Positions 29,650 through 36,481 of a stretch of DNA of 64,000 nucleotides are shown here, piece by piece. The stretch lies in NCBI RefSeq assembly GCF_003054195.1, contig NZ_QBKP01000003.1, forward strand, positions 62,001-126,000. Reading direction: 5' to 3'. The position numbers and the translations under genes were made by a program. The DNA comes from Gemmobacter caeni. GTDB lineage: Bacteria; Pseudomonadota; Alphaproteobacteria; Rhodobacterales; Rhodobacteraceae. Every line of letters starts with the position of its first letter. The stretch's first letter is position 1. The notes under the pieces are model-generated. The model searched no databases. It saw only the letters and a list, made by a program, of their open reading frames with translations, and had not been told where the DNA came from.

Positions 29650-30267
29650 TCAGCGGCGGCGGTCGCGCCGCGCGCTCATCGGCTGGAAGGCCACGCCGAC
29701 ATGGGCGTCGCAATAGGGCTTGCCCGCCTGCGAGGGCAGGCCGCAGAACCAGAAATCTTCGGTCGCCGGATCACCGATCGGCCATTTGCAGGTGCGTTCG
29801 GTCAGTTCCATCAGCGTCAGCTTGCGGGCGCGCTTTTCCACCTCGCGCACCGAGGCCAGCGCCTCGGGGCTGATCTCGTTGGCCGAAGGTTGCGGCGGCA
29901 GCGGCTGGCCTGCCGGAACGATGGCCTTGCGCAGCGGGATCGGGGCCGAGGGGGCCGGGGCAGCCGCTGCCGGTTGCGGGGCAGGGCGTTCGGGCGGGGC
30001 AGGGCGCGGCGGCTCTGCCGCGCGCGGGGCCGGTTCGGGGGCCGGGCGCGGGGTTTCGACGCGCGGGGCCGGAGCCTCGACCGCGACCTCTTCCTCATCC
30101 TCTTTGCCGCCAGCGCCGCCGACACGGTTCGACAGGCCCAGACGGTGAACCTTGCCGATCACCGCGTTGCGGGTCACGCCGCCCAGCTCTTTGGCGATCT
30201 GGCTGGCGCTCTGGCCTTCAGACCACATCCTCTTGAGCGTCTCGACGCGCTCGTCAGTCCACGACAT
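29650..30267 (-). CDS. gcrA: GcrA family cell cycle regulator
   Basis: GcrA is an alphaproteobacterial transcription factor that acts with sigma-70 RNA polymerase at promoters carrying methylated GANTC sites. The 205-residue protein has the conserved N-terminal DNA-binding helix-turn-helix (MSWTDERVETLKRMWSEG, then GVTRNAVIGKVHRLGLSNR), a long Pro/Ala-rich linker (about 55-145) and the C-terminal sigma-interacting block TCKWPIGDPATEDFWFCG with Cys residues. The linker is longer than in Caulobacter. The gene has its own terminator. Confidence 0.93.
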   Translation of the reverse strand: MSWTDERVETLKRMWSEGQSASQIAKELGGVTRNAVIGKVHRLGLSNRVGGAGGKEDEEEVAVEAPAPRVETPRPAPEPAPRAAEPPRPAPPERPAPQPAAAAPAPSAPIPLRKAIVPAGQPLPPQPSANEISPEALASVREVEKRARKLTLMELTERTCKWPIGDPATEDFWFCGLPSQAGKPYCDAHVGVAFQPMSARRDRRR

Positions 30268-30374: not shown

Positions 30375-31100
30375 TCAGACCTCAATCTGGGTAAAGCCGT
30401 CGCGCAGGGCCCTGGACCAGGCCTCGCTCATGGCGCGGAACTGTTCGTCCCCGGCCTCGATCCGCCGCCGCATGCTGATCTGGCATGCATCGCGTTCGAT
30501 CACGCACATATCGAGCGGCATGCCGACCGAGAGATTGGATCGCAGCGTGGAATCCATGCTCAGCAGCACCGCCTTCTGCGCATCGGCCAGCGAGGTTTCA
30601 GGCCGCACCACCCGGTCAAGGATCGGCTTGCCGTATTTGTGTTCGCCGATCTGGAGGAAGGGGGTATCCTCGGTCGCCTCGATGAAATTGCCCTCGGGGT
30701 AGATGAGGAACAGCCGCATCACGCCGCCGCGCCGCTGACCTGCAACGATCATCGAGGCAGAGGCGCTCTGGCGCATCGCGCTCATCTTCTCGTCCACCTC
30801 ATTGCGGACGGAGGCCAGCATGTTGCCGACAATCTCGGCCACCTTCAGCATGGTTGGCGCTTTCAGGATCGAGGTTTCGCCGTCGGCGTCGGGTTCTTCG
30901 ATGGCTTCGCGCAGGCGTGCGATGGTGGTCTGCGTCACGCTGAGGCTGCCAGCAGTCATGATGGCGATGACACGCTCGCCCGGCTCTTCGAAAGTGAACA
31001 TCTTGCGGTAGGTCGAGATATTGTCGAGTCCGGCGTTGGTCCGGGTGTCCGACAGCAGCACCATGCCTTCATTCAGCAGAAGGCCTACGCAATAGGTCAT
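30375..31100 (-). CDS. Proteasome-type peptidase Anbu
   Basis: This 241-residue protein is Anbu, the bacterial ancestral beta-subunit relative of the proteasome and HslV. It begins MTYCVGLLLNEG, so removal of Met1 would expose Thr2 as the N-terminal nucleophile, and Asp18 and Lys33 fit the catalytic Asp and Lys of the family. The ATG at 31100 is chosen because it sets Thr2; the upstream extension is not family-like. It is the last gene of a minus-strand run with a transglutaminase, an alpha-E protein and an ATP-grasp enzyme, a set described by comparative genomics as a likely peptide synthesis or tagging system. Peptidase activity and substrate are not well established. Confidence 0.93.
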   Translation of the reverse strand: MTYCVGLLLNEGMVLLSDTRTNAGLDNISTYRKMFTFEEPGERVIAIMTAGSLSVTQTTIARLREAIEEPDADGETSILKAPTMLKVAEIVGNMLASVRNEVDEKMSAMRQSASASMIVAGQRRGGVMRLFLIYPEGNFIEATEDTPFLQIGEHKYGKPILDRVVRPETSLADAQKAVLLSMDSTLRSNLSVGMPLDMCVIERDACQISMRRRIEAGDEQFRAMSEAWSRALRDGFTQIEV

Positions 31101-31169
31101 GTTCGTTTCCGTGAGTGGCGTTTGACGCAACACTAGGGCTGCGCCCGCGCGGGCGCAACCACCGCTTCG

Positions 31170-31994
31170 TCACTGCTGTTCCTGCTGCTGGCCCTGCGTG
31201 CAGACGGCCACGCGCACTGCCATGGTTTCGGCGCCGGGACCGCGCGCGATGCCGCGGATCGGCGCCGCATCCTGTGCGTCGAAGCCGGAGGCAAGCCGGA
31301 TGTAGCGTTCATCCGGGCAGCAGGCATTGGCCGGATCGAAACCGACCCAGCCCAGACCGGGCAACCAGATTTCGGCCCAGGCATGGGCGGCCTCATGCGC
31401 CTTGCCCCCGGCATCCGCGAACAGGTAGCCCGAGACATAGCGCGCGGGCATCCCCCGGTGCCGTGCAATGGCGATCAGGGCGTGGGCGTGATCCTGGCAG
31501 ACACCTTCGCCCAGACCCAGTGCTTCGGCGGCTGTGGTATGCGCCTCGGTCACGCCGGGGCGATAGGTGATCGCTTCTGCCACCGCAGCGGAAAGCCGGT
31601 GCGCGGCATCCAGCGGGCCGTCGGCGCCTTCTGCCGCCTCTGACAGATCGACCAGCGCGGTATCGACGCGGGTGGGCAGGGTGTCGCGCAGATAGACTTC
31701 GGGGCGCACCGTCTCGCGATGGCCACGCAGAACCCCGGCAAGGTCGCGGGTATCGACCGTGCCGGTGACCTGCACCAGAATTTCACTGACCGGGCCGATC
31801 ACGGACCAGGCGCTGATCCGGTCGCCCGCGCCGTCGCGGAAGCTGCCGCCCTGAAGTCCGTCGCTGACGGTAACCTTCCAGTCCAGTACCGTCTGCCCTT
31901 CGAACACCGAAGGCGTCAGGCGATGGCTTTGCACCACACCGCGCACGGGCGCGGCATAGCGATAACAGGTGACATGATCGACGGTCAGACGCAT
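31170..31994 (-). CDS. Transglutaminase-like cysteine peptidase/amidase
   Basis: This 274-residue cytosolic protein has an N-terminal beta domain (MRLTVDHVTCYRYAAPVRGV) and a transglutaminase-like catalytic core. The triad is visible as Cys166 (GEGVCQDHAH), His204 (AHAWAEIW) and Asp220 (GFDPAN). In this gene context it probably cuts or transfers amide or isopeptide bonds made by the ATP-grasp enzyme encoded upstream. The C-terminus is an unusual Gln-rich tail (QGQQQEQQ). Its start codon overlaps the alpha-E stop by one base, showing tight coupling. Confidence 0.92.
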   Translation of the reverse strand: MRLTVDHVTCYRYAAPVRGVVQSHRLTPSVFEGQTVLDWKVTVSDGLQGGSFRDGAGDRISAWSVIGPVSEILVQVTGTVDTRDLAGVLRGHRETVRPEVYLRDTLPTRVDTALVDLSEAAEGADGPLDAAHRLSAAVAEAITYRPGVTEAHTTAAEALGLGEGVCQDHAHALIAIARHRGMPARYVSGYLFADAGGKAHEAAHAWAEIWLPGLGWVGFDPANACCPDERYIRLASGFDAQDAAPIRGIARGPGAETMAVRVAVCTQGQQQEQQ

Positions 31995-32944
31995 CAGCGC
32001 AGATCCCCGCTCAGATAAGATTCATGGATGGCAGTGCCCAGTTCGGCGGAATCGCGGATGAACCGCGACAGAAACTCGTGCAGCCCCTCGTCGAAAATCG
32101 CCTCGACATTGGTGGTTTCCAGCTCGTTCAGCATGGCGGTGGCCTTGCCCTGTGCAGGCATGGTGCGGCCATAGGCCTTGGCCAGTCGCGTCAGGTGGTT
32201 GTTCACGCCGGACAGGCAGGTGATGAGCGAACGCGGGCTTTGCGGATTGAGGATCAGGAAATCCGCGATCTTGGCCGCCGTCACCTCGCCGCCATAGGCC
32301 CAGTGGAAGGCGCGATGCGCCCCCATGGCCCGCAGAAGCGTCGTCCATTGATAATTGTCGAGCCCGGACCCCACGAATTCGATGCGTGGCAGCAGGACGT
32401 AATATTTCACATCCAGCATCCGGGCGGTGTTGTCGCCGCGTTCCAGATAGTAGCCGATATTCAGGAAGTTGTAGCCGTCATTGCGCAGCAGCGTCGCGTC
32501 GATGGCGCCGCGCACCATGGCGGTGTGGCGCATCACCCATTCGGTCAGGCGGCTGAGTTCCAGCTCGCTGCGCGGGGTGCGTTCCAGTTGCCGCAACTCC
32601 TGAAAAGCGGTGTTCAGCGCGTCCCAGACCTGGCTGGTCAGCGCTGTGCGCACGATGCGGCCGTTTTCCCGCGCCGCCGTGATGCAGCTTGCCACCGAGG
32701 AGGGGTTGTCGCGGTCGAAGAACAGCCAGCTTTCAAGGTTGCGCTGCACCGGGTCGCCGTATTTGTGGGAAAACCCGTTGGCCGTGCCCGAGGATTGCAG
32801 CAGGCTGTCCCATTCGTTGCGATAGCCATGGGTGGAGGGCATCAGCGTGATGCGCGATCCCACTTCCAGCAGCCGCGCCGCAATGTCGGCGCGTTCCATA
32901 TAGCGGGCGATCCAGTAGAGGTTGTCTGCGGTTCTGCTCAGCAT
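31994..32944 (-). CDS. Alpha-E domain (DUF403) protein
   Basis: This 316-residue, almost all-helical protein matches the alpha-E/DUF403 family, with the conserved start MLSRTADNLYWIARYMERAD and the later YYLERGDNTARMLDVKYY. These proteins occur almost only next to circularly permuted ATP-grasp enzymes and transglutaminases, and are thought to act with them in making or presenting a peptide. A chemical activity is not known. The ATG at 32944 is preferred over the TTG one codon upstream. It follows the ATP-grasp gene by six bases. Confidence 0.92.
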   Translation of the reverse strand: MLSRTADNLYWIARYMERADIAARLLEVGSRITLMPSTHGYRNEWDSLLQSSGTANGFSHKYGDPVQRNLESWLFFDRDNPSSVASCITAARENGRIVRTALTSQVWDALNTAFQELRQLERTPRSELELSRLTEWVMRHTAMVRGAIDATLLRNDGYNFLNIGYYLERGDNTARMLDVKYYVLLPRIEFVGSGLDNYQWTTLLRAMGAHRAFHWAYGGEVTAAKIADFLILNPQSPRSLITCLSGVNNHLTRLAKAYGRTMPAQGKATAMLNELETTNVEAIFDEGLHEFLSRFIRDSAELGTAIHESYLSGDLR

Positions 32945-32950
32945 CAATGA

Positions 32951-34363
32951 TTACTCCGCCAGCACCCAGGTATCCTTGACCCCGCCGCCCTGAGACGAGT
33001 TCACCACAAGGCTGCCGTCTTTCAGCGCCACGCGGGTCAGCGCGCCGGGCACGAGGTCGATGCTTTCGCCGACCAGGCAATAGGGCCGCAGGTCCACATG
33101 GCGTGGTGCGATACCTTCGGCCACGAAAGTCGGCGTCGTGGACAGCGCAAGCGTCGGCTGAGCGATATAATTGTCGGGATCGTCAAGGATCTTCAGCCGG
33201 AAGGCCTCGACCTCGGCCTTGGTGGATTTCGGCCCGACCAGCATGCCGTAACCGCCTGAGCCATGCACCTCTTTCACGACCAGTTCGGGCAGGTTGTCGA
33301 GCACATATTTCAGGTCATCCGATTTGCCGCATTGCCAGGTCGGCACGTTGTTGAGGATCGGCTCTTCCCCCAGATAAAAGCGCACCATTTCGGGCACGAA
33401 AGTATAGACCGCCTTGTCATCCGCCACGCCCGCACCGGGTGCGGAACAGATCGCCACCCCGCCGGAGCGGTAGACATCCATCAGCCCCGGCACGCCCAGC
33501 ATGGAATCCGGGCGGAAGCACAGCGGGTCGATGAAGGCATCGTCAATCCGGCGATAGATCACATCCACCTTCTTCGGGCCCTCGGTGGTGCGCATCCAGA
33601 CAAATTCGCCCTCCACGAACAGATCCTGCCCTTCCACCAACTCGACCCCCATCAGATCGGCGAGGAAGCTGTGTTCGTAATAGGCGCTGTTGAAATGGCC
33701 GGGGGTCAGCAGAACCACGCGCGGCTCGCCCGTGCATTTCGCGGGCGCGACCGAGGCGAGTGTACGGCGCAGCCTTTCGCTGTAACTGTCGACCGGCTGG
33801 ATGCGGTTCTCGCGGAACAGATCGGGGAACATCCGCATCATGATTTCGCGGTTTTCCAGCATGTAGCTGACACCCGAGGGCGTGCGGCAGTTGTCTTCCA
33901 GCACAAAAAACTCGTCAGGCCCGGTGCGCACGAGGTCAATGCCGACGATGTGGCTGTAAACTCCCTTGGGCGGCACGAAGCCGACGACGGCCTTTTCGTA
34001 AGCCTCGTTTTCATACACCAGACGCGCCGGGATGCGCCCGGCCTTCACGATCTCGCCCCGGCCATAGACATCGGCCAGAAACATGTTCAGCGCCCGCGCG
34101 CGCTGCTTGATGCCGCGTTCCAGCCGGGTCCATTCCGGGGCGGTGAACACGCGGGGGAACATGTCGAACGGGATCAGCCGATCCGGGTCGCCGCCCTCGC
34201 CATAGACCGCGAACGTGATGCCGATGCGGCGAAACAACGTTTCAGCCTCGGCCTGCTTCATCTGCCTGAGCTCGGCCGGCATATGCCGCATCCAGTCTTC
34301 CAGCCGCGCATAAGGCGCGCGCACTGCGCCGTTATCATACATTTCGTTGAAATAGGTCGTCAC
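32951..34363 (-). CDS. Circularly permuted type 2 ATP-grasp protein
   Basis: This 470-residue enzyme belongs to the DUF404/DUF407 ATP-grasp amidoligases, which join amino or carboxyl groups using ATP. Typical segments are FDMFPRVFTAPEW near the start, DLVRTGPDEFFVLEDN, VVKEVHGSGGYGMLVGP (nucleotide loop) and the ending SLVVNSSQGGGVKDTWVL. The start is a GTG at 34363 (VTTYFNEMYDNG) with GGGGGCG upstream; the frame further upstream is not family-like. As the first gene of the operon it probably makes the amide-linked product that the alpha-E, transglutaminase and Anbu proteins handle. The product is unknown. Confidence 0.92.
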   Translation of the reverse strand: MTTYFNEMYDNGAVRAPYARLEDWMRHMPAELRQMKQAEAETLFRRIGITFAVYGEGGDPDRLIPFDMFPRVFTAPEWTRLERGIKQRARALNMFLADVYGRGEIVKAGRIPARLVYENEAYEKAVVGFVPPKGVYSHIVGIDLVRTGPDEFFVLEDNCRTPSGVSYMLENREIMMRMFPDLFRENRIQPVDSYSERLRRTLASVAPAKCTGEPRVVLLTPGHFNSAYYEHSFLADLMGVELVEGQDLFVEGEFVWMRTTEGPKKVDVIYRRIDDAFIDPLCFRPDSMLGVPGLMDVYRSGGVAICSAPGAGVADDKAVYTFVPEMVRFYLGEEPILNNVPTWQCGKSDDLKYVLDNLPELVVKEVHGSGGYGMLVGPKSTKAEVEAFRLKILDDPDNYIAQPTLALSTTPTFVAEGIAPRHVDLRPYCLVGESIDLVPGALTRVALKDGSLVVNSSQGGGVKDTWVLAE

Positions 34364-34654
34364 TGAAGCGCCCCCGATCTTGCTGATTTCAGTTAAGCGT
34401 CGCCCCGGCGGACATGAAAGCGGCGGTGACGGTTTTCGCGGCAAAAAGGCCTGAAACCTGCCGGGAACAGGGTCATTCGCCTAATATTTGAGCAAATTTT
34501 GGTGAATTGCAGGAGCCAAAGCCTTTCGGATGGCCGAATCCGGGCGAAAATTCCCTATCGCGTGCATCAGATTTGCATGGCCCGGAAGGGCCTGAGGCTT
34601 GCGCTTGGTCCCTTCGGGAACCTAGATGGGAACAAACATGCTTGAGGTTCCTCC
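34364..34654. other. Divergent promoter region between the ATP-grasp operon and pepF
   Basis: This 291-base stretch holds no convincing gene. It contains an AT-rich patch at 34481-34505 that could hold promoter elements, and a short hairpin GGCCC-GGAA-GGGCC at 34579-34592 in the pepF leader. No recognisable operator or riboswitch was found. Confidence 0.4.
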
Positions 34655-36481
34655 ATGACTCTTCCGCTTCCTTCGCCGGTTTTCGATGCCAATGCCGCCG
34701 GGGGCGGGCTGGGCAATCTGCCCGAATGGGATCTGACCGATCTTTACCCCGCGCCGGATGCGCCCGAAGTTGCGCGCGACATGGCCTGGCTGGAAAAAGC
34801 CTGTGCCGATTTCGCGGCGGCCTATGAAGGCAAGCTGGCGGACCTCGATGCTGCCGGGTTGCTGGCCTGCGTGCAGGAATACGAGGCAATCGACGTGATC
34901 GCCGGGCGCCTGATGTCTTACGCCGGGCTGCGCTATTACCAGAACACCATGGACAGCGAGCGCGCCAAGTTCATGGCCGATGCGCAGGACCGTGTCACCA
35001 CCTTCACCACGCCGCTGGTGTTCTTCAGCCTGGAGTTCAACCGTCTGGAAGATGCGGCGCTGGACCGGCTGCTGGCCGCCAATGCCGATCTGGCCCGCTA
35101 CAAGCCGGTGTTCGACCGGATGCGCGCCATGCGCCCGCACCAGCTTTCGGACGAGTTGGAGCGCTTCCTGCATGACGAAAGCGTCGTCGGCGCCTCGGCC
35201 TGGAACAAGCTGTTCGACGAGACGATGGCAGGCCTGATGTTCAAGGTCGCGGGCGAGGAGGAGGAGCTGAACCTCGAAGCCACGCTGAACCTGCTGACCG
35301 ATACCGACCGCGCGAAACGCGAGGCTGCGGCGCGGTCGCTGGCCGAAGTCTTTGATCGCCATATCAAGCTGTTTGCGCGGGTGCACAACACGCTGGCCAA
35401 GGAAAAGGAAATCCATGATCGTTGGCGCAAGATGCCCAGCCCGCAGCATGGCCGCCATCTGTCGAACCATGTGGAACCCGAGGTGGTGCAGGCTTTGCGG
35501 GATGCCGTGGTTGCCGCCTATCCCAAGCTCAGCCATCGCTACTATGCGCTGAAGGCGAAATGGCTGGGTCTCGACCGGCTGCAAGTCTGGGACCGCAACG
35601 CGCCGCTGCCCATCGAACAGCCGAAAACCGTGGACTGGGATACCGCACGCAAGACGGTTTCCGATGCCTATGCCGTCTTCTCGCCGCGTCTGGCCGAACT
35701 GGCCGAGCCGTTCTTCACGCAGGGCTGGATCGACGCAGGTGTGAAGCCCGGCAAGGCCCCCGGTGCGTTCGCGCATCCGACCGTCACCACCGTGCATCCC
35801 TATGTGATGCTGAATTACCTCGGCAAACCGCGCGATGTGATGACGCTGGCGCATGAACTGGGGCATGGCGTGCATCAGCGGCTGGCGGCGGCACAGGGGG
35901 AGTTGTTGTCCTCCACCCCGCTGACGCTGGCCGAAACCGCCAGTGTGTTTGGCGAGATGCTGACCTTCCGCAAGCTCCTGGACGGAGCCAGAACCCCGGC
36001 CGAGCGCAAGACCTTGCTGGCCGGAAAGGTCGAGGACATGATCAATACGGTCGTGCGCCAGATCGCCTTCTATGATTTCGAATGCAAGCTGCATGCGGCG
36101 CGGGCGGAAGGGGAACTGACCCCCGACGACATCAATGCCCTGTGGATGAGCGTGCAGGCCGAAAGTCTTGGCCCGGCCTTCGATTTCATGGATGGGTATG
36201 AGACCTTCTGGGCCTATATCCCGCATTTCGTGCATTCGCCGTTCTACGTCTATGCCTATGCCTTCGGTGACGGGTTGGTGAACGCGCTTTACGCGGCCTA
36301 TGCCGATGGTCTGCCGGAGTTCCAGGAGAAGTATTTCGATCTGCTGAAGGCGGGCGGCTCGAAGCACCACAAGGAACTGCTGGCGCCCTTCGGGCTGGAT
36401 CTGTCTGATCCCGGTTTCTGGCAGAAGGGGCTCGACATGATCGCGGGCTTCATTGACGAGCTTGAGGCGATGGAAGCCTGA
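34655..36481 (+). CDS. pepF: M3 family oligoendopeptidase F
   Basis: This cytosolic zinc metallopeptidase cuts short oligopeptides. The 608-residue protein has the M3 zinc motif HELGH (400-404) and the downstream ASVFGEML segment that supplies the third ligand Glu. The N-terminal LPEWDLTDLYPAPDAPEV and the C-terminal YVYAYAFGDGLVNALYAAY are characteristic of the PepF/M3B group. It is divergent from the Anbu operon, so two peptide-degrading activities share a promoter region. A strong terminator follows. Confidence 0.94.
   Translation: MTLPLPSPVFDANAAGGGLGNLPEWDLTDLYPAPDAPEVARDMAWLEKACADFAAAYEGKLADLDAAGLLACVQEYEAIDVIAGRLMSYAGLRYYQNTMDSERAKFMADAQDRVTTFTTPLVFFSLEFNRLEDAALDRLLAANADLARYKPVFDRMRAMRPHQLSDELERFLHDESVVGASAWNKLFDETMAGLMFKVAGEEEELNLEATLNLLTDTDRAKREAAARSLAEVFDRHIKLFARVHNTLAKEKEIHDRWRKMPSPQHGRHLSNHVEPEVVQALRDAVVAAYPKLSHRYYALKAKWLGLDRLQVWDRNAPLPIEQPKTVDWDTARKTVSDAYAVFSPRLAELAEPFFTQGWIDAGVKPGKAPGAFAHPTVTTVHPYVMLNYLGKPRDVMTLAHELGHGVHQRLAAAQGELLSSTPLTLAETASVFGEMLTFRKLLDGARTPAERKTLLAGKVEDMINTVVRQIAFYDFECKLHAARAEGELTPDDINALWMSVQAESLGPAFDFMDGYETFWAYIPHFVHSPFYVYAYAFGDGLVNALYAAYADGLPEFQEKYFDLLKAGGSKHHKELLAPFGLDLSDPGFWQKGLDMIAGFIDELEAMEA

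Follow-up and report, generated by a model that had tools for sequence, protein, structure and literature searches.

What the four-gene set around the proteasome-like protein Anbu makes, and under which condition it is switched on, is the question raised by a locus of Gemmobacter caeni located in the window analysed here, a 64,000-nt stretch of its genome. The set itself is not new, being the already published 'Anbu operon', and the name Anbu dates from 2008, when the protein was put forward as a possible proteasome ancestor (PMC5666114). The initial annotation gave the operon no product; neither a product nor a substrate of Anbu is named in the available text of PMC5666114, PMC6376114 and PMC8665760. 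What is added here is a conserved palindromic operator and, as its probable meaning, control of the operon by NtrC under nitrogen starvation.

The operon of Gemmobacter caeni and its four proteins

The minus-strand open reading frames at 30375-34363 proved to encode ATP-grasp, alpha-E, transglutaminase-like and Anbu proteins, in the place and on the strand first annotated (Table 1), and are separated by gaps of 6, -1 and 69 nt, respectively. A strong-looking palindrome in the 69-nt transglutaminase-Anbu gap was rejected as a hairpin or attenuator, being no better than shuffled sequences (z -0.7); a z value below -2 for a hairpin signal was found in none of 48 such gaps.

Table 1. Features of the Anbu locus in the window of Gemmobacter caeni
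Feature	Position	Strand	Details and evidence
Anbu, proteasome-like Ntn hydrolase	30375..31100	-	241 aa; PF00227 and solved Anbu chains
Transglutaminase-like cysteine hydrolase with Bact_transglu_N	31170..31994	-	274 aa; PF08379 and PF01841
Alpha-E protein	31994..32944	-	316 aa from ATG; TTG at 32947 is an alternative start; PF04168
Circularly permuted ATP-grasp ligase	32951..34363	-	470 aa, GTG start; PF14403/PF04174, 3n6x
Putative NtrC-type 17-bp palindrome	34478..34494	.	CGCCTAATATTTGAGCA, other strand TGCTCAAATATTAGGCG; motif search
Divergent intergenic region, operon and pepF	34364..34654	.	No sigma-54 promoter above background
pepF-like M3 oligoendopeptidase	34655..36481	+	TIGR02290, 4.1e-189; neighbour, not a system member

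Profile searches and family alignments, from which proteins with an internal stop were left out, showed all signature residues previously cited for the four proteins to be intact in the window. The ATP-grasp protein matched PF14403 (6.6e-166, 552 bits against a cut-off of 32) and, among solved structures, its full-length relative 3n6x (E 8.2e-198), the putative glutathionylspermidine synthase Mfla_0391, whose structure title terms the function putative. Residues D143, E156, N158, K317 and K364 are kept in the window, and at least 75 of 78 sequences share them; by eye, the D/ExN and two Lys motifs that they form line up with D318, E330, N332, K498 and K533 of E. coli Gss, and we take them, by analogy with the Gss motifs, to be the metal and ATP residues. 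Gss itself, a permuted ATP-grasp fold, was reached by a fold search from the fusion protein of a sister system (2io7/2io8), while no profile match was obtained between the window ATP-grasp family and E. coli Gss (hhalign probability 0.2); Gss further differs in its amidase domain, which the window protein does not have. The all-helical alpha-E protein (PF04168, 1.8e-91, 307 bits against a cut-off of 20.8) carries the ER motifs E17-R18 and E168-R169, E17, R18 and E168 being identical in all 50 sequences compared. Its predicted model (pLDDT 90.8, pTM 0.90) found no PDB relative at E<=0.001 with Foldseek, TM-scores being at most 0.30 among the 50 matches listed.

The transglutaminase-like protein scored 84 bits against PF01841, and its Cys166-His204-Asp220 triad, intact as annotated, recurs in all 76 aligned transglutaminases, which include four of a large kind (from L063, L064, L065 and L067). 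Anbu matched PF00227 (1.5e-8) and, over its whole length, the solved Anbu chains 5loy (3.6e-77), 5nyj (2.4e-73) and 5lox (5e-58), as well as 5nyf and 5nyw. All 81 Anbu proteins have Thr at position 2, where Met removal is expected to expose it, and at least 78 of them have D18 and K33, both present in the window; the available text of PMC6376114 names the nucleophile Thr together with Asp17 and Lys32/33 (numbering without Met), and reports neither peptidase activity nor specific interactions for Anbu. Anbu proteins are further characterised by a dodecameric open ring or lock-washer assembly. Compared with archaeal-type proteasome beta subunits and HslV, the window protein is alike in its PF00227 domain and N-terminal Thr, but falls far under the Arc_protsome_B cut-off (25.7 against 224 bits), and it differs in that no linked AAA+ ATPase or unfoldase gene is reported for Anbu in the available text of PMC5666114.

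Conservation of the gene set and its neighbours

The initial annotation had proposed comparing the four-gene set across Rhodobacteraceae. The family set comprised 80 Anbu loci, one per genome and all from the same family, and in 73 of them ATP-grasp, alpha-E, transglutaminase and Anbu follow in this order on one strand. The seven exceptions comprise Anbu alone (L058), cuts at contig ends (L086 and L097) and four loci in which the small transglutaminase is absent and a large one is divergent (L063, L064, L065 and L067). In a named-genome set, overlapping the family set in species, the order was held in 63 of 80 loci (tblastn), the other 17 including loci cut at contig ends, some with no operon gene but Anbu, others where Anbu is accompanied by pepF alone, and some that lack the small transglutaminase. 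Among 120 genomes, alpha-E was present in all 83 that have Anbu, against 5 of the 37 Anbu-less ones.

The joint set is therefore highly conserved (73/80), as had been supposed, but not indivisible, since three-gene operons without Anbu exist (L248, L249 and L251). The core seems to consist of the ligase, alpha-E and the transglutaminase, with Anbu optional. In the sister system ATP-grasp and alpha-E are fused, and in all 27 proteins of this kind the ATP-grasp part has lost metal and ATP residues, those corresponding to E156, N158 and K364. Together, the Anbu-less operons and this degenerate ligase help to separate the core reaction from accessory parts.

The gene pepF, annotated as sharing the promoter region, is indeed the divergent neighbour across a common intergenic region, but its membership of the system did not hold: no more than 18 of the 80 family loci have it within 5 kb of the operon, which confines the link to the near clade. 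As for flanking genes that might reveal a substrate, no cluster occurred in more than 19 of the 80 loci. Besides pepF (18), the real-looking clusters are an alpha/beta-hydrolase-like gene downstream (18), mixed ABC ATPases (17) and a helicase-like gene (16), the last three names being our own reading of the sequences. None of the ABC ATPases exceeds 34% identity to the representative used for comparison, and they are therefore unrelated paralogues.

A conserved palindromic operator upstream of the ATP-grasp gene

A conserved palindromic operator precedes the operon. This element, the most informative one of the promoter region, was absent from the initial annotation, whose account of the promoter was in this respect incomplete. 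In the window it occupies the divergent promoter region, 115-131 nt before the ATP-grasp start. Upstream regions were compared in 77 loci plus the window (78 in all), L058, L086 and L097 being dropped for having no ATP-grasp gene in the stretch. With a 17-bp consensus read from the same loci on which it was tested, the palindrome was found at >=13/17 in 50 of the 78 regions against 3.56 expected, and at >=14 in 37 against 0.42; the remaining 28 had no palindrome at >=13/17. The 17-bp consensus replaced an earlier 18-bp one that was weak and shifted in register. The palindrome starts between -150 and -85 in 43 of the 50 sites, and a second site was detected in 34 of 57 regions (17.8 expected), at a spacing of 19-23 bp in 15 and of 30-32 bp in 10. 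It was also present in 27 of 33 Rhodobacterales-like regions of named genomes (1.35 expected), compared with 3 of 30 hslV control regions at >=13/17 (0.85 expected).

Scored with a matrix derived from the other clade, which reduces but does not remove circularity since its training sites were picked with the 17-bp consensus, the window site reached 19.4, a value equalled by none of 1160 shuffles. It has one mismatch to the 17-bp search pattern, and because at one mismatch this genome contains 10 such places against 7 for the reversed control pattern, position and conservation, rather than the match alone, carry the case for the site.

Link of the operator to NtrC and nitrogen genes

In Paracoccus denitrificans, a putative NtrC site, (T/C)GC(C/A)NNNNTTNNT(G/A)GCA, precedes glnBA, amtB and nasTS, and its mutation at nasT abolished induction (PMC5424462, available text). 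This printed consensus was not derived from Anbu loci, so that it gave a test free of circularity, weaker but positive: at >=10/11 it occurred in 15 of 78 Anbu-operon regions (2.88 expected), 3 of 30 P-II regions (0.7 expected) and 0 of 30 hslV regions (0.82 expected). Its outer halves agree with the 17-bp palindrome, though not all inner positions do, and 34 of the 50 palindrome sites score at least 9/11 on it. The window site scores 9/11, a value equalled or exceeded at another position in that region; with this score and its single mismatch, it is a moderate candidate for an NtrC-type operator.

The exact 17-bp pattern occurred at 105 forward sites (63 genomes) in the 120 genomes, against 7 for the reversed pattern. 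Genes beside exact sites include two for P-II, two for ammonium transporters, a glutamate-synthase-like gene, a cytosine deaminase gene and xdhA; exact sites occur in 29 family loci, where 15 of them lie inside a script-called ORF, some of these ORFs being surely spurious, and four precede uvrC-like genes. The palindrome was found at 12 of 30 P-II genes (0.6 expected), and the P-II gene of the window's own genome carries TGCACAAATATTGTGCA.

This genome encodes an NtrC-like protein (L217, 462 aa) without GAFTGA; the naming is ours, based on an adjoining NtrB-like ORF and a split TIGR01818 match under the cut-off, and none of 52 family matches passed the NtrC model cut-off. As described in the available text of PMC10274813, R. 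capsulatus NtrC works with sigma-70, and NtrC proteins of Rhodobacterales have a deletion over GAFTGA. For sigma-54 promoters the consensus was taken to be TGGCACG-N4-TTGC. The best candidate before the window operon was rejected (11.5/17, with 77% of control windows as good), and at >=14.5 none was found in 33 Rhodobacterales-like named loci, compared with 8 of 31 other alphaproteobacterial loci, in which the upstream site is sometimes paired with such a promoter (e.g. L328). The operator is thus probably an NtrC binding site of the GAFTGA-less type acting with sigma-70, and the operon is probably switched on when nitrogen is scarce, as are the P-II and ammonium-transport genes that share this site.

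Expression data from P. putida point the same way as far as the available text of PMC7801951, PMC8050072 and PMC3325844 goes: PP_2685-2688 are induced under nitrogen limitation. In one table Anbu is barely induced (1.12) and its partners by 11-15, the partners still being induced in an rpoN mutant; two other data sets have Anbu induced in nitrogen limitation. On the other side, the main text of PMC5424462 mentions no transglutaminase, proteasome or ATP-grasp gene (0 occurrences) among the 74 nitrate-induced genes of P. denitrificans. Among open-licence papers, no report of an NtrC site upstream of an Anbu operon in Rhodobacteraceae was found.

Proposed function and alternative explanations

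Taken as a whole, the best explanation, and a fairly probable one, is that the window carries an intact Anbu operon under nitrogen-starvation control. At low nitrogen, GAFTGA-less NtrC would bind the palindrome and sigma-70 transcription would turn the operon on. The ATP-grasp enzyme might then couple an amine or amino acid to a carboxylate on a metabolite or small peptide; alpha-E might be its dedicated partner, as their fusion in the sister system suggests; and the transglutaminase-like enzyme, with Anbu where present, might cut or transfer the amide bonds of the conjugate. Since no unfoldase is linked to Anbu, the operon would most likely serve to capture or recycle nitrogen by way of a small amide conjugate, and not for the breakdown of proteins in bulk.

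The tagging of proteins, proposed in the literature (PMC5666114, PMC6376114, available text), would have ATP-grasp and transglutaminase attach a peptide tag and Anbu remove it or degrade the protein, as recycling in starvation. The likely nitrogen control fits this, and so does the Ntn nucleophile kept throughout the Anbu proteins, but the missing unfoldase link (PMC5666114), the lack of peptidase activity and of specific interactions (PMC6376114) and the three-gene operons without Anbu make it unlikely. Very improbable is that the genes form a biosynthetic cluster whose small-peptide product is secreted or stored (as a siderophore-like compound, compatible solute or nitrogen reserve) and matured by the hydrolases: the ligase family does share its fold with glutathione and glutathionylspermidine synthetases (3n6x match; fold search of the sister fusion), but no single transporter family recurs by the operon, the ABC ATPases being unrelated paralogues, and an operator common to nitrogen-assimilation genes suggests primary metabolism.

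The palindrome could also be the real operator of another regulator, such as NtrX or an Lrp/AsnC protein, the link to nitrogen being indirect. Lrp/AsnC proteins would likewise be compatible with a TGCCYAA-N3-TTRGGCA pattern spaced by 20 and 31 bp, and the four uvrC-like genes, the presence at only 12 of 30 P-II genes and the inner positions unlike the printed NtrC consensus all speak for it. Against this stand the enrichment of that Paracoccus consensus (15/78 against 2.88), the company of P-II, amt, xdhA and cytosine deaminase genes, and the occasional pairing with a sigma-54 promoter in other alphas, which render such a regulator quite improbable.

To return to amide conjugation under NtrC, a broader version, possible but on balance doubtful, would extend it to Alphaproteobacteria as a nitrogen-starvation pathway built on ligase, alpha-E and transglutaminase, to which Anbu would add a dispensable hydrolase. 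Under continued NtrC control, the promoter machinery would have shifted from the enhancer and sigma-54 of Hyphomicrobiales to the sigma-70 and GAFTGA-less NtrC of Rhodobacterales; in the co-regulated sister system, the ATP-grasp would be a dead partner of alpha-E, ligation having passed to a DUF2126 domain. In practical terms, a conserved nitrogen-starvation operator indicates in which condition to look, which regulator could be deleted and which other genes share the site.

Comparison with known operons

The Anbu operons of Yersinia bercovieri and Pseudomonas contain the same four families in the same order as the window (PMC6376114, available text), and for the Pseudomonas operon induction by nitrogen limitation is reported in P. 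putida (see above). The cluster I35_5080-83 of Burkholderia cenocepacia (DUF404/407-DUF403-transglutaminase-large transglutaminase) shares ligase, alpha-E and transglutaminase under nitrogen control; it is NtrC-controlled and a common target of sigma-54 and NtrC, and Anbu is not named there in the available text of PMC5491218. Compared with the known Anbu operon, that of Gemmobacter caeni is distinguished by a divergent pepF neighbour, a trait of the near clade only, and by a putative NtrC-type palindromic operator with no accompanying sigma-54 promoter above background.

Identity and conservation of the Anbu operon

Re-examination of the four minus-strand genes showed that the coordinates, order and key residues in the initial annotation were all correct, and that the operon of the window is of a known kind, intact and well conserved. 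The genome (Rhodobacteraceae-type) comprises 5.1 Mb, and among the named Anbu proteins found, that of Gemmobacter caeruleus is closest (89% identity over 239 residues). Thr2 of Anbu is kept in 81/81 family proteins, C166, H204 and D220 of the transglutaminase-like hydrolase (TGase) in 76/76 aligned proteins, four of them large transglutaminases, and D143, E156, N158, K317 and K364 of the ATP-grasp ligase in at least 75 of 78 family proteins. Lined up by eye, the latter five correspond to Asp318, Glu330, Asn332, Lys498 and Lys533 of E. coli glutathionylspermidine synthetase/amidase, residues that we take to have roles in that enzyme. Immediately 3' of Anbu lies a minus-strand gene (29650-30267) which, from its N-terminal sequence, we take to encode a GcrA-like cell-cycle regulator. 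A GC-rich palindrome in the TGase-Anbu gap (31101-31169) was rejected, being no better than shuffled sequence (z -0.7).

The four-gene set is highly conserved: the complete one-strand order occurs in 73 of 80 Anbu-centred family loci (the 83 genomes with Anbu, minus the window's own and two with broken matches) and, by tblastn, in 63 of 80 loci of named genomes titled Alphaproteobacteria or unclassified Proteobacteria. A set of 120 family genomes that includes the window's contains 83 with Anbu and 88 with alpha-E, the latter comprising every Anbu genome and five without Anbu. The divergent neighbour pepF is near the operon in only 18/80 family loci. At L063, L064, L065 and L067 the operon consists of ATP-grasp, alpha-E and Anbu only; the small TGase is absent, and its place is taken by a large transglutaminase gene in divergent orientation. 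Genome G066 has a solitary Anbu (L058), with the remaining three genes at another locus (L247), and G048, G083 and G059 carry a three-gene operon (L248, L249, L251) with no Anbu match; because of these exceptions, Anbu appears to lean on the other three genes and not the reverse.

A conserved operator upstream of the ATP-grasp gene

Side-by-side reading of upstream regions first revealed a 17-bp palindrome with the consensus TGCCYAAWWWTTRGGCA. Among 78 regions (77 loci and the window), at least 13 of 17 positions were matched in 50, at least 14 in 37 and at least 15 in 19, against 3.56, 0.42 and 0.02 expected from dinucleotide-resampled copies. The operator starts at -150 to -85 in 43 of the 50 matching regions, and it stands out against freely diverged sequence, since no pair of regions has 5% or more common 11-mers (Jaccard). 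When a scoring matrix was derived from 29 sites in the more distant Anbu clade, 17 of 29 near-clade regions exceeded the null's 99th percentile, where 0.29 would be expected; the window site scored 19.4, higher than 1160/1160 shuffles. Of the 57 regions that hold a good site, 34 have a second palindrome nearby (17.8 expected), spaced by 19-23 bp in 15 and 30-32 bp in 10, approximately two and three helical turns.

Exact matches to YGCCYRAWWWTYRGGCR number 105 and come from 63 of 120 genomes, whereas the pattern reversed gives 7; neighbouring genes were read from 29 fetched family loci (see table), where 15 sites fall inside script-called ORFs, including L131, the Anbu-operon site of G091. The sole exact match in the window's genome precedes the large transglutaminase of the sister cluster (L113). 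The window operon site has one mismatch, and such sites need other support, because the genome holds 10 of them against 7 for the reversed control. Another one-mismatch palindrome (L118:1501-2659; G000:C4:280958) lies 61 nt upstream of a Bmp/PnrA-type ABC binding protein gene, perhaps bringing nucleoside uptake into the same regulon.

Features of the operon, its operator and related loci
Feature	Locus or coordinates	Strand	Remark
Anbu operon	window 30375-34363	minus	
Operator	window 34478-34494		
alpha-E	window 31997-32944	minus	
Fused ATP-grasp-alpha-E proteins	L218-L246, e.g. L218:1998-4361	minus	
P-II	L123, L151		beside exact palindrome
Ammonium transporter	L136, L140		beside exact palindrome
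Glutamate-synthase-like gene	L125		beside exact palindrome
Cytosine deaminase	L141		beside exact palindrome
xdhA	L144		beside exact palindrome
uvrC-like genes	L126, L128, L137, L143		exact palindrome 109-164 nt upstream; uvrC confirmed for L126

Predicted regulator and promoter type

In Paracoccus denitrificans, of the same family, one report describes a putative 17-bp NtrC site, (T/C)GC(C/A)NNNNTTNNT(G/A)GCA, before glnBA, amtB and nasTS, whose mutation abolished nasT induction (PMC5424462). This consensus has 11 fixed positions. At least 10 of them are matched in 15/78 Anbu-operon regions (2.88 expected), 0 of 30 hslV control regions (0.82) and 3 of 30 P-II regions (0.7), and at least 9 in 58 (26.0), 8 (9.1) and 11 (7.7), respectively. 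Its inner positions are partly unlike those of the palindrome, of which 34 of 50 sites score at least 9/11 on it. The palindrome itself precedes 12/30 P-II genes (0.6 expected), among them that of the window's genome, and 3/30 hslV genes (0.85). The candidate NtrC of this genome (L217) has no GAFTGA motif; PMC10274813 reports this lack for Rhodobacterales NtrC and connects it with sigma-70. NtrC control of the operon in nitrogen starvation is a supported prediction, against which it counts that the available part of PMC5424462 does not name the Anbu operon among nitrate-induced genes.

No sigma-54 promoter was seen upstream of the window operon. Among named loci, divided by record title and list rank and partly overlapping the 120-genome set, the Rhodobacterales-like group has the palindrome in 27/33 regions (1.35 expected) and a strong sigma-54 match in 0/33, against 11 (1.05) and 8 (0.25) of 31 in other Alphaproteobacteria. 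All eight sigma-54 loci are titled as taxa that we assign to Hyphomicrobiales. This split suggests that nitrogen control was retained while the promoter type changed. Elsewhere, the operon is reported to be induced under nitrogen limitation in P. putida (PMC7801951, PMC8050072, PMC3325844), although one data set shows no induction of Anbu itself (1.12) and continued induction in an rpoN mutant, and a Burkholderia cenocepacia relative is reported to be NtrC- and sigma-54-controlled (PMC5491218).

The sister system

In a second arrangement, alpha-E follows an ATP-grasp domain in a single fused protein, encoded beside a small transglutaminase and a large one with DUF2126, labelled a 'putative amidoligase' domain. 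The palindrome precedes this large transglutaminase in 9/29 cases (0.73 expected), and in G025 this cluster and the Anbu operon directly adjoin each other on the same strand in head-to-tail arrangement (L226, G025:C1:342338-352180). The fused ATP-grasp has probably lost its ligase activity, because the positions of E156, N158 and K364 are replaced in 27/27 proteins (by G/S/A/Q, R/L and G/S, respectively) and that of K317 is Arg or Gln; Pfam still calls this candidate pseudo-ligase ATP-grasp. Ligation may have been taken over by DUF2126. The ATP-grasp part of the fusion model (pLDDT 85.9, pTM 0.83) is nearest to 3n6x, then to homoglutathione, glutathione and glutathionylspermidine synthetases. 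That alpha-E is retained next to an ATP-grasp domain that has probably lost its activity points to a single functional unit made up of alpha-E and the ATP-grasp fold. The all-helical alpha-E model (pLDDT 90.8, pTM 0.90) had no significant PDB match by Foldseek and is perhaps an unrepresented fold.

Proposed function

Parts, gene order, residues and operator are established. A weakly supported proposal for the mechanism is that ATP-grasp with alpha-E would couple a small carboxylate with an amine or an amino acid, and that TGase and Anbu would then hydrolyse or transfer the product, for capture or recycling of nitrogen. Protein tagging and degradation by the Anbu system is a possible alternative to this ligation and nitrogen recycling. 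The gene set is a known system, not a new one, to which the present analysis adds a condition and a candidate regulator, both testable.
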